A DNA stretch of 47,745 nt from Candidatus Bathyarchaeota archaeon (GTDB taxonomy: Archaea; Thermoproteota; Bathyarchaeia; Bathyarchaeales; Bathyarchaeaceae): positions 1 through 47,745 of the forward strand of contig JAUWDY010000010.1 of assembly GCA_030608565.1 (NCBI GenBank). Direction: 5' to 3'. Below, piece by piece: positions 25,108-30,118 of this stretch (its first letter is position 1; each line of letters opens with the position of its first letter). The notes under the pieces are model-generated. The model saw nothing but the letters and a program-made list of their open reading frames with translations. It was not told the DNA's origin and did no database searches. Both the position numbers and the translations under genes were made by a program.

Positions 25108-26355
25108 TCAACGCCTACTCGAAATCTCTGCCAAATATTTAGGCGCATACTTGACTAAACGCTCAAGCCTATCATCCGTGATGAATGACGCTCTAATAAT
25201 ACTACGTGCTATGCTCAGACGAATCTTTTTTGTACGCCCGTACCGCCCCATGCTCACAACTCGTGCGTTCAATAACCCTATCACATCTAGTTCATTCACT
25301 AAACTACTCACCCGTCTTTGAGTTAACGGTGTAAGCCCTGACTGACCACAAAGCTCACAGTAAATTTCATAGATGTCACCAGTCACCGCACAGCTAATTT
25401 TTGCCTTGCCTAATAGATAGACGCTACATAAGACGAGTTTTGAGTGAAGTGGAAGGTTCTCTAGAGCTTCCGCAATCCGATCATGTTCAATCCTTTTTTC
25501 CGCCCGTCGTATGTGATCCTCTACAACAGCTTCAGAGCCTTCGCGCTCAGCCAACTCGCCAGCAACCCGAAGAAGATCCAAAGCTCGCCGTGCATCTCCA
25601 TGCTCCGCAGCGGCCAACGCGGCACACAAACTCAAAGCGCCATCAAACAGAACGCCATCATGAAATGCTGGTCGGGCACGGTCTAGAAGGATGTCCCGGA
25701 GCTCAGCTGCATCATATGGCCTAAATACGATTTCCTCCTCGCTTAGAGAACTCAAAACTCTGGGATCAAGAAACTCTTTGAATCTAAGATCGTTGGAGAT
25801 TCCCACAATTGCGGTTTTGCTATAATGAAGAGTTTCGTTTATTCTGGTCAATTCGTAGAGCAAAACATCCCCCCGCGTTTTTATGAGGGCATCGATTTCA
25901 TCAAGAACAATTATAAAAAGGATTTTACGTGAGTCTAAGCCAGTTTTAAATCGGTCAAAAACTTCTCCCACAGCTAGGCCGGTAAATGGAACCTTCACGT
26001 CCAAAGTAGCACATAAACTTGAGAAAATCCTGTACTCTGTACTCATTAGTCGACAGTTAATATAGCAGACCTTCACAGGTGCCCCAAGTTCACAAGCCTT
26101 ATGACCAAGTCTGCTCAACACATACTTTATAACTGCGGTTTTTCCTGTGCCTGTTTTTCCGTAAACCAAGACGTTAGAGCACCGGGAACCCTTCAAAACA
26201 GGGGCACATATTTCACCAAGGTAACGGATTTGCTCCCTACGATGTGGTAGCATGTCAGGGATATAGTCATGTCGCAATACCTCTCTATCCTGAAATATTC
26301 CGTTGCCTTTCAAAAAATGTTCAAATACCTTGTCTAACACGGTAGTTTTACTCAT
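25108..26355 (-). CDS. cdc6: Orc1/Cdc6 replication initiator
   Basis: About 415 residues. AAA+ domain with Walker A VYGKTGTGKTA, Walker B IIVLDEIDAL and sensor-1 AIVGISND; lid domain with HGDARRALDLLRVAGELAE (sensor-2 Arg); and C-terminal winged helix (about 320-410, with TQRRVSSLVNELDVIGLL). It binds ORB elements and recruits MCM. I chose the ATG at 26355 because GAGGG lies eight bases upstream; an ATG seven codons earlier is possible. The gene points away from the 0.7 kb intergenic region that carries three ORB-like repeats, one only 47 bases before its start, which suggests autoregulation. Confidence 0.95.
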   Translation of the reverse strand: MSKTTVLDKVFEHFLKGNGIFQDREVLRHDYIPDMLPHRREQIRYLGEICAPVLKGSRCSNVLVYGKTGTGKTAVIKYVLSRLGHKACELGAPVKVCYINCRLMSTEYRIFSSLCATLDVKVPFTGLAVGEVFDRFKTGLDSRKILFIIVLDEIDALIKTRGDVLLYELTRINETLHYSKTAIVGISNDLRFKEFLDPRVLSSLSEEEIVFRPYDAAELRDILLDRARPAFHDGVLFDGALSLCAALAAAEHGDARRALDLLRVAGELAEREGSEAVVEDHIRRAEKRIEHDRIAEALENLPLHSKLVLCSVYLLGKAKISCAVTGDIYEIYCELCGQSGLTPLTQRRVSSLVNELDVIGLLNARVVSMGRYGRTKKIRLSIARSIIRASFITDDRLERLVKYAPKYLAEISSRR

Positions 26356-26401
26356 AACATTGCCCTCAGATGTCAATTCATTGTTGAATGTTCACACTCA
26401 G

Positions 26402-26421
26402 ACCCCTACATTTCCTATGGA
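26402..26421 (-). repeat. ORB-like element 1
   Basis: Minus strand reads TCCATAGGAAATGTAGGGGT. It is the most divergent of the three copies but keeps TCCA, GGAA and TAGGGGT. It lies 47 bases upstream of the Orc1/Cdc6 start, so Orc1 binding here could also repress its own gene. Confidence 0.7.
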
Positions 26422-26487
26422 ATAGCCTAGAGATCTTTAGGTAATATTCTTCCTTCTTTAGAAGGAATAGCCTCTCACTGGTTAGCC

Positions 26488-26560
26488 ACTATTTTTTTAT
26501 TTAATAATTATGATAAAACACTTTGAAGTGTTTTTACAGATTTTTTTTGCTAAATAAAAT
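26488..26560. other. AT-rich stretch, candidate DNA unwinding element
   Basis: About 73 bases composed almost entirely of A and T, with T runs of seven and eight and the palindromic ACACTTTGAAGTGT inside. It lies between ORB-like elements 1 and 2. Such tracts next to ORB sites are where archaeal origins melt. The AT-rich stretch at 26745-26820 is an alternative. Confidence 0.5.
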
Positions 26561-26587
26561 CTACTCCCATTTTAACAGACTTGGCGG

Positions 26588-26607
26588 TCCAGTGGAAACT
26601 TAGGGGT
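26588..26607 (+). repeat. ORB-like element 2
   Basis: Plus strand reads TCCAGTGGAAACTTAGGGGT, matching the archaeal origin recognition box core (TCCAGTGGAAAC followed by a G string) very closely. Its G run faces that of element 3 across the inner AT-rich sequence. Confidence 0.85.
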
Positions 26608-26836
26608 TGGAGTCAAAGAAATAACCATGATTGTTAGCAATTGTAAGTGTGACATGCACTACATTTTCACTAGGCTGAAGTACGCCTTTACTAACACGTT
26701 AGATTGTATGAACTGTTTACTCGTTGAACACTTAACTTTTTGTGAACTATTGTGAAATTGATTTATTTAATGATTTACCAACGGTCCTATTTTATGAAAA
26801 TTTACCTTTTTCTGTCCTATAACGTGTAAAGAGCCG

Positions 26837-26856
26837 ACCCCTAGTCTTCCACTGGA
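26837..26856 (-). repeat. ORB-like element 3
   Basis: Minus strand reads TCCAGTGGAAGACTAGGGGT, differing from element 2 at three positions. It is inverted relative to element 2, the usual arrangement of ORBs flanking an unwinding site. Confidence 0.85.
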
Positions 26857-27053
26857 GAATTAAGCTTACTACGCCTTTTACGTCTATTTTGCAAACACTG
26901 CCTCTTGTGAAGTCTGTGAATCAAAAAAGATGCAAATTACGTTTATTTTTCAATTTTAAGACATAACTGTCCTTTTTACCCTTCTAATGTTCACCATAAC
27001 TTCTATAACCTGTGACATGTTAAGTTGTAAAGAGTTTTGTTTGGTGCTTAGGA

Positions 27054-27479
27054 ATGCCTGCTAGGAAAATGCGAGTGGAGGTCTTCGACGAAAATGGAAA
27101 CCGTTATACAATAACCTTTACGGGTCATGTTACTAGAGACAAGGCTCTTCGTCTATTAGATGTTGTCGAACTACTCGGTGGCATGCCTGGGCTTAACCCT
27201 GGAGTGGGTGACTTTCCTTCGGAGCTGTCAAAGTTTGATAAGGTTCGCTTGATTCTTGAGAAGAGTTTTCCAGTTGCGTGGTTTTCTTCTAAGGACGTTC
27301 AATCTGCATATGAACAGGAGTTTAAAAAACCAATCAGTTTGAGCACGGTTTCTACATATCTATCTCGGATGGCCCAGCGTGGCATTCTTGCAAATAGAAG
27401 TATGTCGAACCGCAAGCGTTATAGACGGATGACTAGAATGTCACAAAATACATTAAGTTACATGAAAGGTGATAAATAA
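27054..27479 (+). CDS. Winged-helix DNA-binding protein next to the origin, unknown role
   Basis: 141 residues. Residues about 1-45 form a small beta/alpha unit (MRVEVFDENGNRYTITFTGHVTRDKALRLLDVVELLGGM); residues about 60-130 form a winged helix (FSSKDVQSAYEQEFKKPISLSTVSTYLSRMAQRGIL) with a basic tail (NRKRYRRMTRMS). It is the first gene to the right of the probable origin and is followed by nurA and herA. It may regulate these genes or bind the origin, as WhiP does in Sulfolobus, but no sequence link to WhiP is claimed. No ribosome site is obvious before the ATG. Confidence 0.8.
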   Translation: MPARKMRVEVFDENGNRYTITFTGHVTRDKALRLLDVVELLGGMPGLNPGVGDFPSELSKFDKVRLILEKSFPVAWFSSKDVQSAYEQEFKKPISLSTVSTYLSRMAQRGILANRSMSNRKRYRRMTRMSQNTLSYMKGDK

Positions 27480-27558: not shown

Positions 27559-28587
27559 ATGACCAAAATCAGCGAAGATTTAGCAGAAATGAAGAAAAAA
27601 CTTGGTGAATACATTAACAAGGGACGCGCAATAGGTTTTCATGAAGCTAGGAAGGAACCTGTGATAGCAATTACCCCTGATAAGTCTAAAATAAAGCCTT
27701 TAAGAAAAATAGAAAATTGCGACGTACATTTCATCGCTGTAGACTGCTCAACCAGAACCTTGAAGAGAGCAAATAACTGGGGCATTTACCTCATGCGGGC
27801 AGCATATGCTTCTGTGGAGGGACGCAACGTGAATTGGGGTTATGAGGAAAGTATCGCCAGTGTAGTCGGAGATCGCCGAACACGTTCTAATTTCTTAAAA
27901 GATCGAAGACTGCAATTAGAAAGCGAAATGGCTTTGAAAATTCTTTACGAAGAGTCTAGTGATGATGTGGGCGTGGGTAGGAATGCTCTTCGTAGACTAA
28001 GTGAAGGAGATTATATTCTTCTGGATGGAGCTAGCTTCTTTGGCGGAAAAAGGGGGTTCTATACCTCACTATACGAAGAGGCTCTTCGTAAAAGGGTCAA
28101 TCTTCTTACTATAAGTAAACAGTCTCCGATGCTTCAAGATGAAAAGGGGCGAGATCTTATGGCAGCAACATGTATGCTTGCGCCTTATCCAATCTGGATT
28201 TACTACCCAGTTAGAGAAGCAAATAAAGATAAACATCTATACGGGGATGTGTCTATTGTGAAATTGTGTGAAGATGGCTCACACGCTTTCCGTTGTGACA
28301 TAATGGAATACTTAACTAATCGCGAAGTATCTGAGTTACTTTCCCCACTAACGACAATCTCAGAAGATCCAAGATGCCTAGGGTATCCGATCACCCTTTG
28401 GCTTGCTCATGATTTTTCTGCTTCATCTGACTCGAAACTCCTTCACTATCATGATCAAATTGAGGAGATGCTAGCTAACGCTGGGTTGTTAAATATACTT
28501 CGCGTTGAAGAACTCTCATGCAGTTTTCCAGATGAACTTCATGGTGTAAAACATCCATTTCACTGGGAGCGGATTGAACATGTCTGA
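27559..28587 (+). CDS. nurA: NurA 5'-3' nuclease
   Basis: 342 residues. The NurA fold is shown by HFIAVDCSTR (first metal Asp, about 57), LLDGASFFGGK (second Asp, about 155), the SKQSP motif, and the C-terminal PITLWLAHDFS with its conserved Asp/His region. NurA works with the HerA translocase to resect DNA ends for homologous recombination. The start has GGAGAGGAAG upstream. Its end overlaps the beginning of herA by eight bases, so the two are translated together. Confidence 0.9.
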   Translation: MTKISEDLAEMKKKLGEYINKGRAIGFHEARKEPVIAITPDKSKIKPLRKIENCDVHFIAVDCSTRTLKRANNWGIYLMRAAYASVEGRNVNWGYEESIASVVGDRRTRSNFLKDRRLQLESEMALKILYEESSDDVGVGRNALRRLSEGDYILLDGASFFGGKRGFYTSLYEEALRKRVNLLTISKQSPMLQDEKGRDLMAATCMLAPYPIWIYYPVREANKDKHLYGDVSIVKLCEDGSHAFRCDIMEYLTNREVSELLSPLTTISEDPRCLGYPITLWLAHDFSASSDSKLLHYHDQIEEMLANAGLLNILRVEELSCSFPDELHGVKHPFHWERIEHV

Positions 28588-30118
28588 GCCTGCAGGGTTT
28601 GTCCGTGAAGTAAAGGGAGATAAAGTTTCCTTCTTCCTCAACAAAGGAACTGACCTCTCATTTGGTCAGATAGTGAGAGTAGACTCGGGCAACAGAAGCT
28701 TCTACGCGCGTGTTGTGGATGCTGGAAGCTCCTCTACACTAAAAACGGACGAGCAACTTCGTGAAGCAGAAGGGAAGGAATCCTTTGGGCCATACTCCAG
28801 CTATAGGCATGTTGATGCGATTCTTTTCCTCGAAAAAGAGGTCGGGAAGATTCGTTCTCCAACTTTTAACCCGGATTATATGGACAAGGTGTACACGGCT
28901 ACTGATGAGGACTGTTCGGTTTTGAGGCTTGCAGGGGAGTTGGAGATAGGGCGCTTGCGTTCAGGGAAGCATGTACTTGGTCCTGTCGGCATAAGTGTTG
29001 AGGCTATACCTCTGATGATGGGAATGTTTGGAATGACAGGATGTGGGAAAACAAATTGTGAATTAATGCTTAACGCTCGGATTATAGATTCGAGTCCAAG
29101 GACTGTTGGTTTAATTTTTGACTTTGCAGGCCAGCTTCTTGAGGGAAAAGGGATAGCGCCTCAACGGGGCCTGAGGGATCATCCACTCTTTCACACAAAA
29201 ATTCGTTATTACTCGGCTAGAGAGCAGAAGATGCTTGTTGGTCTATATACAATTCGTCCTCAAAAACTTTCAACACTCTTTCCTGACATTACACATCATC
29301 AAGTTAGGCTTGCTCAAAAACTTTACAAGAGTTTGGGGAACACTTGGATAGAACAGTTGCAAGAAGCCTATAGTATAAATGGGCATAAGGGAGTGGCTGA
29401 GCTCACCGACTACAAGGGCAAAGCCGTGATAGATGCTCTTATGCTAAAGCTTTCAAGTTTGTCTCCACATCTTTTTCCGCCGTCTGACTACAGTTTCGTT
29501 GATGATGTAGTACAGAACGTGGGCCAAGGCGTCACTTGTCTCGTCGATATTTCAGGTCTCAGTTCTGAGGAGCAATATGATGTTACCTGTCTGACAGCTT
29601 CTAGTGTGGCCCTCCATTACAAGAGGTTGTGGGAGAGTGATTTTAATGCGTGGAAAAAGCTTCCAACCCTTTTGATAACTCTTGAAGAGGCCCATGAGTT
29701 CCTTGATCCAAACATGCCTAAAACAATATTCTCGGATATTGCGCTGACGTATCGAAAGTATCGGGTGGGACTGAATGCGGTGACACCGCGGCCTTCAAGA
29801 ATAAATCCTAATGTCTTCGCTGAGCTTTGGACCAAGGTTGTCATGAAGACGGAGTTGCGTCGTGACAGGGTCTACCTTACGGGCAACACGCCTTATCTTG
29901 AGTACAGTGACACTGAGGTAAAGATGCTTGATGTTGGGGAAGCTTTGCTTATCTCGGAGCCGAAAATCCGATTCGCAGTTCCGATAAAGGTTATTCATTA
30001 TCCTGAGTACATTGACGAGAGGGGAGAAGTTGATTATAAGCTCTCTGCGTCAAAGCCACTTTCTGAAATGGATGAAAGGCTCAAAAAGCTTCGTGAAGCT
30101 GGAAAAACGAATTTGTGA
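28580..30118 (+). CDS. herA: HerA DNA translocase/helicase
   Basis: About 512 residues from the ATG at 28580 (a TTG lies two codons upstream). N-terminal HAS-barrel (GFVREVKGDKVSFFLNKGT), Walker A FGMTGCGKTN (about 151-160), Walker B ITLEEAHEFL, and the FtsK/HerA arginine-region YRKYRVGLNAVTPRPSRINPNV, with the family's usual sensor elements. It forms a hexamer that pumps DNA for NurA. Usually paired with Mre11-Rad50, which is absent here; instead the pair sits next to the origin and Orc1/Cdc6. Confidence 0.93.
   Translation: MSEPAGFVREVKGDKVSFFLNKGTDLSFGQIVRVDSGNRSFYARVVDAGSSSTLKTDEQLREAEGKESFGPYSSYRHVDAILFLEKEVGKIRSPTFNPDYMDKVYTATDEDCSVLRLAGELEIGRLRSGKHVLGPVGISVEAIPLMMGMFGMTGCGKTNCELMLNARIIDSSPRTVGLIFDFAGQLLEGKGIAPQRGLRDHPLFHTKIRYYSAREQKMLVGLYTIRPQKLSTLFPDITHHQVRLAQKLYKSLGNTWIEQLQEAYSINGHKGVAELTDYKGKAVIDALMLKLSSLSPHLFPPSDYSFVDDVVQNVGQGVTCLVDISGLSSEEQYDVTCLTASSVALHYKRLWESDFNAWKKLPTLLITLEEAHEFLDPNMPKTIFSDIALTYRKYRVGLNAVTPRPSRINPNVFAELWTKVVMKTELRRDRVYLTGNTPYLEYSDTEVKMLDVGEALLISEPKIRFAVPIKVIHYPEYIDERGEVDYKLSASKPLSEMDERLKKLREAGKTNL

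Follow-up and report, generated by a model that had tools for sequence, protein, structure and literature searches.

Among the described systems closest to the locus reported here is oriC1 of Sulfolobus, which has an Orc1-1-type initiator beside the origin, three ORBs with a TCCA..GAAA core and a GGGGT G-string, and an inverted ORB pair around AT-rich DNA. The common ORB motif in DoriC is TCCA[CG]T[TG]GAAA[TC][GA]AAGGGGT (PMC4164010), and the AAA+ domain contacts the G-string (PMC3936714). Where origins have been characterised, the duplex-unwinding element (DUE) lies between ORBs of opposite polarity (PMC6742236), which direct the loading of MCM in the interval that they enclose (PMC6742236; PMC12141716). 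In S. islandicus, the unlinked nucleoid protein UBP binds an essential site within the DUE, ucm, and the study of UBP leaves open whether divergent archaea possess analogous origin proteins (PMC12141716). The oriC of Pyrococcus also has repeated ORBs and lies directly upstream of cdc6 (PMC4010727). At Sulfolobus oriC3, the initiator is WhiP, a winged-helix protein described as a distant Cdt1 homologue (PMC5333045). Nitrosopumilus maritimus has one origin, which has been mapped (PMC5333045).

We analysed 47,745 nucleotides (hereafter the window) from the MAG of an uncultured Bathyarchaeia archaeon, whose close relatives by Orc1 comparison are Bathyarchaeia MAGs as well. The first-pass annotation of this DNA had proposed an oriC beside orc1/cdc6, and we consider it very likely that the window does hold a chromosomal replication origin, of the oriC1 type (Table 1). 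The main reason is comparative: a triplet of ORBs with strands -,+,- is kept in all 28 origins whose sequence could be used (that of the window and those of 27 relatives, which are non-independent samples), and ORBs are nearly absent elsewhere in 61 genomes. The reading is further backed by the Orc1-1-type initiator, the gene for the small subunit of DNA polymerase D, and unstable AT-rich DNA between inverted ORBs. Of the gaps in the window that lack an open reading frame of at least 80 amino acids, 26356-27053 is the longest, in line with the annotation, which had called it the largest gene-free gap. Its further remark that coding direction flips here is correct at the gap itself, with orc1 on the minus strand and the next gene on the plus strand, but farther out the strands are mixed. 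No Rfam families or tRNA genes were found in the window. Our literature search, with subscription papers outside its scope, returned nothing on a Bathyarchaeia origin, on the winged-helix protein described below or on its pairing with TGTRAA repeats, and the Bathyarchaeia genome papers that we examined do not mention replication.

Table 1. Features of the predicted origin and its flanking genes (window coordinates)
Feature	Position	Strand	Remarks
orc1/cdc6, Orc1-1 type initiator	25108-26355	-	ATG at 26355; mechanical ORF reaches TTG at 26376
ORB1	26402-26421	-	TCCATAGGAAATGTAGGGGT; exact match; kept in 28/28 origins
Predicted duplex-unwinding element	26490-26569		Least stable 80 bp of origin; holds AT block 26498-26524
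ORB2	26588-26607	+	TCCAGTGGAAACTTAGGGGT; exact match; kept in 28/28 origins
TGTRAA site A	26735-26761	+	TTGTGAACTATTGTGAA; half-sites 10 nt apart; conserved block
ORB3	26837-26856	-	TCCAGTGGAAGACTAGGGGT; exact match; kept in 28/28 origins
TGTRAA site B	26902-26926	+	TTGTGAAGTCTGTGAA; half-sites 9 nt apart; conserved block
TGTRAA site C	26987-27037 (26987-27024 in footprint)	+	At TATA-like CTATAAC, just upstream of winged-helix gene
Unnamed 141-aa winged-helix protein	27054-27479	+	Divergent from orc1; AlphaFold winged helix
NurA-like nuclease	27559-28587	+	Pfam NurA 23.2 bits (cutoff 21); next downstream gene
HerA-like ATPase	28574-30118	+	Pfam DUF87/HerA 32 bits (cutoff 23.2); overlaps NurA-like gene

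All three 20-base ORB-like elements were found exactly as first written. They closely fit the DoriC common motif (PMC4164010) and have the TCCA..GAAA core and the GGGGT G-string; the annotation had given a core plus a G string as known for archaeal ORBs. At up to 3 mismatches there are 4 ORB matches in the window, against 0.69 expected, and 0 of 100 shuffles reached 4. Across the organism's own assembly (1,758,308 bp in 45 contigs), these three are the only copies with 0 mismatches, and three further places match with 2 mismatches. The repeats are therefore not scattered widely through the genome, a pattern that the annotation had named as speaking against an origin.

Across the 28 origins, the median start-to-start distance is 186 bp (137-216) from ORB1 to ORB2 and 227.5 bp (143-272) from ORB2 to ORB3. 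The weakest box in a few distant origins matches 10-12 of 13 core positions. When 61 genomes were searched for exact matches to a relaxed ORB pattern, 98 were found, 93 of them within 1 kb upstream of orc1-1; the reversed pattern, used as a control, gave 4 in total. One more match (genome G030) lies beside a winged-helix gene at the start of a contig. Three genomes from other families of the same class (G084, G099, G241) and one from another family of the phylum (G096) likewise have the -,+,- triplet in the interval from orc1 to the winged-helix gene, and the cultivated relative Bathyarchaeum tardum (strain M17C, orc1 locus at about 1,747.5-1,748.3 kb of G015 C1) has the same arrangement on its contigs. 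Haloarchaeal plasmid origins were tried for ORB polarity, and their ORBs failed to fit the pattern.

Two irregular cases turned up in these searches. The relative G012 has two exact relaxed-pattern matches distant from orc1-1 (G012:C9:2365 and G012:C12:4780), which could come from contamination, from a plasmid or from a second origin. At locus L040 (CP070749.1), the origin of another relative breaks off after ORB2; unrelated sequence follows, and ORB3, the TGTRAA repeats and the winged-helix gene are missing, through either rearrangement or misassembly.

The initiator gene adjoins the gap on the minus strand, as annotated, and its product matches the NCBIfam ORC1-type family above cutoff (E=1e-155). 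Its nearest PDB chains are 2qby_A (Cdc6-1 of S. solfataricus) and 2v1u_A, a Cdc6 homologue from A. pernix. The motif RRVS...ELD...GRYGxT is common to all three proteins, and the winged helix of the window's Orc1 carries the conserved form QRRVS...NELD...GRYGxTK. On the far side of this Orc1-1-type gene lies the gene for the small subunit of DNA polymerase D (DP1), with DP2 about 10 kb off; in Pyrococcus, PolD genes cluster with cdc6 too. The assembly also encodes a second, divergent Orc1 with 28% identity (locus L008, G000:C21:27397-28503), with an ABC-transporter gene on one side and small molybdopterin-type genes on the other. We rejected this locus as a second ORB-type origin because it has no ORBs nearby on contig C21 and its upstream gap is only 119 bp.

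The ORBs are not the only conserved repeats in the gap. Direct repeats of TGTRAA form a second, non-ORB class that the first-pass annotation had overlooked, as it had the linked winged-helix gene. Between ORB2 and the next gene, the 28 origins hold 134 forward and 18 reverse copies; dinucleotide shuffles give 17.8 +/- 3.8 forward copies, and the strand asymmetry serves as an internal control, though relatedness inflates the counts. On the orc1 side of the origin, TGTRAA is near expectation. Half-site pairs are mostly spaced 9, 10 or 15 nt apart, and their positions relative to the start of the next gene are conserved. Of the non-coding blocks in the 28-origin alignment, site C is the best conserved, with the highest information content (1.78 bits), and in many relatives its half-sites lie ~28-48 nt upstream of the winged-helix start codon. 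The paired TTGTGAA pattern of site A occurs once in the organism's own genome. Genome-wide, the TGTRAA pair pattern is not far above its reversed control; since it is too short for specificity by itself, our case is built on position, strand and conservation. We know of no report of these repeats, or of the winged-helix gene, for the Pyrococcus oriC.

The AlphaFold model of the 141-aa protein (mean pLDDT 77) has a beta hairpin at the N terminus, together with a winged helix. The protein had no NCBIfam match at E<=0.1, and its Pfam scores were all below cutoff: Penicillinase_R at 20.4 bits (cutoff 22.6), FUR at 19.4 (23.1) and Cdc6_C at 18.8 (25.1). A PDB fold search with the model returned general winged-helix matches only, none at E<=0.001. 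Like WhiP, it has a winged helix and is tied to an origin, but WhiP is the initiator at oriC3 (PMC5333045), and here the initiator is Orc1.

Throughout much of the phylum, the winged-helix gene stays near orc1. In the order, 48 genomes have the two genes on the same contig, and in all 48 they diverge from the origin between them, with a gap of 613-885 bp; the cases without the gene at this place are mostly at contig ends or assembly gaps. Of the 299 genomes sampled from the phylum, 189 (63%) carry the family, each with a single copy. In family f18, the gene is again divergent, ~470-800 bp from orc1 (non-wrapped cases, compared by eye), and some other families have it 15-60 kb away or more. Families f23 and f37 mostly carry it 6-60 kb from orc1 on the same contig. 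The NurA-like and HerA-like genes come after it in most relatives. The HerA-like ATPase also has a weak match to the DNA-translocating ATPase CedD (51.5 bits, cutoff 600).

What the TGTRAA repeats do can be read in more than one way. They may be mere promoter or operator elements of the winged-helix-nurA-herA genes, with no role in replication, and we put the chance of this a little short of even. Every repeat points toward the winged-helix gene, and the best-conserved one, site C, is located at a TATA-like box directly upstream of it. On the other hand, site A keeps a conserved position ~300 bp ahead of the gene, in the interval from ORB2 to ORB3, and in nearly all relatives the repeats and the gene are found together with oriC. 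A promoter role and a replication role can also coexist. Somewhat less probable is binding by another factor, such as the second Orc1 paralogue, a nucleoid protein or an MCM-associated factor. UBP sets the precedent of an unlinked nucleoid protein at an origin (PMC12141716), and this genome does carry a second Orc1 gene. We nonetheless lean toward the winged-helix protein as an autoregulator, because the directional repeats run to the gene's own promoter, as an autoregulator would show, and because the gene keeps its linkage to oriC.

On the orc1 side of ORB2, the DNA itself is the prominent feature. The segment at 26490-26569, with a core of 81% AT, is the least stable of the origin (nearest-neighbour stability value 3.7 sd above the window mean), and footprinting of the 28 origins marks its AT block as conserved. 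The annotation had drawn attention to two ORBs facing each other across about 230 AT-rich bases; the G-strings of ORB2 and ORB3 do face each other over 229 bp (67% AT), but the AT-richest segment is elsewhere. The unwinding element is probably located between ORB1 and ORB2 and not in that interval, because the least stable 80 bp fall there in 25 of the 28 origins. ORB1 and ORB2 are inverted, with their G-strings directed outward, and so flank the AT-rich element. By analogy with known origins, we infer that ORB1, the element and ORB2 form the core for MCM loading, with ORB3 as an accessory. The 166 bp between ORB1 and ORB2 exceed the 130-bp ORB3-DUE-ORB2 region of S. islandicus (PMC12141716). 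The window further differs from Sulfolobus oriC1 in having no ucm-like site above chance (the best matches to ATTATACAAAC in all 28 origins were no better than in shuffles, P ~0.2-1.0); what it has are the TGTRAA repeats and, linked to them, the winged-helix gene. It is very improbable that the ORBs are merely Orc1 operators autoregulating the orc1 promoter, with replication beginning elsewhere: in the window's genus ORB1 does lie close to the orc1 start (~47 bp here) and the conserved AT block might serve as the TATA region of orc1, but other genera have ORB1 ~100-200 bp from orc1 with the triplet geometry unchanged, the locus with its three spaced and inverted sites around unstable DNA looks like known origins, and an ORB cluster elsewhere is absent in nearly all relatives.

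The annotation had also pointed to a change in skew as a check on the origin, and here the outcome was mixed. Cumulative GC skew across the window has its minimum at the gap. For a genome-wide view we used G022, a one-contig relative, in which 60 sampled 20-kb blocks covered 1.2 of 2.2 Mb. Contrasts across orc1 (at 990 kb) were significant for TA (P=0.0008), keto (P=0.0006) and gene strand (P=0.0056) by permutation, which ignores autocorrelation, but not for GC skew (P=0.23). An initial test with 40 blocks was not significant, and the 60-block test had its contrast fixed at orc1. The best TA and keto position was 920 kb, and for the TA, keto and strand contrasts, 8-10% of positions do as well as that of orc1. 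Because of this and the ignored autocorrelation, we count the skew of G022 as weak support for the origin. Another relative's single record (G001:C1, 1,497,384 bp) contains 9,800 N and probably consists of concatenated contigs; order-based analyses on it are unsafe, and it was rejected for skew.

In the model that we propose, Orc1 from the adjacent gene would bind the three ORBs in fixed polarity, as expected from its family. ORB1 and ORB2 would flank the AT-rich unwinding element, where MCM would most likely be loaded for bidirectional replication, and ORB3 would be an accessory or regulatory third site. The array of three TGTRAA sites, which extends from the origin interior to the divergent promoter, probably binds a regulator. 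Most simply, this would be the adjacent winged-helix protein, which would thereby tie its own expression to the state of the origin. We judge the chances about even that this protein binds TGTRAA and couples its own operon to the origin. That the family is a dedicated origin-binding factor, acting through TGTRAA repeats within oriC, we suggest more tentatively. The conserved repeats and the linked winged-helix gene give the open question of the UBP study (PMC12141716) a concrete candidate. If the suggestion is true, divergent archaeal lineages would have in the winged-helix family an origin protein besides Orc1, and a counterpart of UBP.
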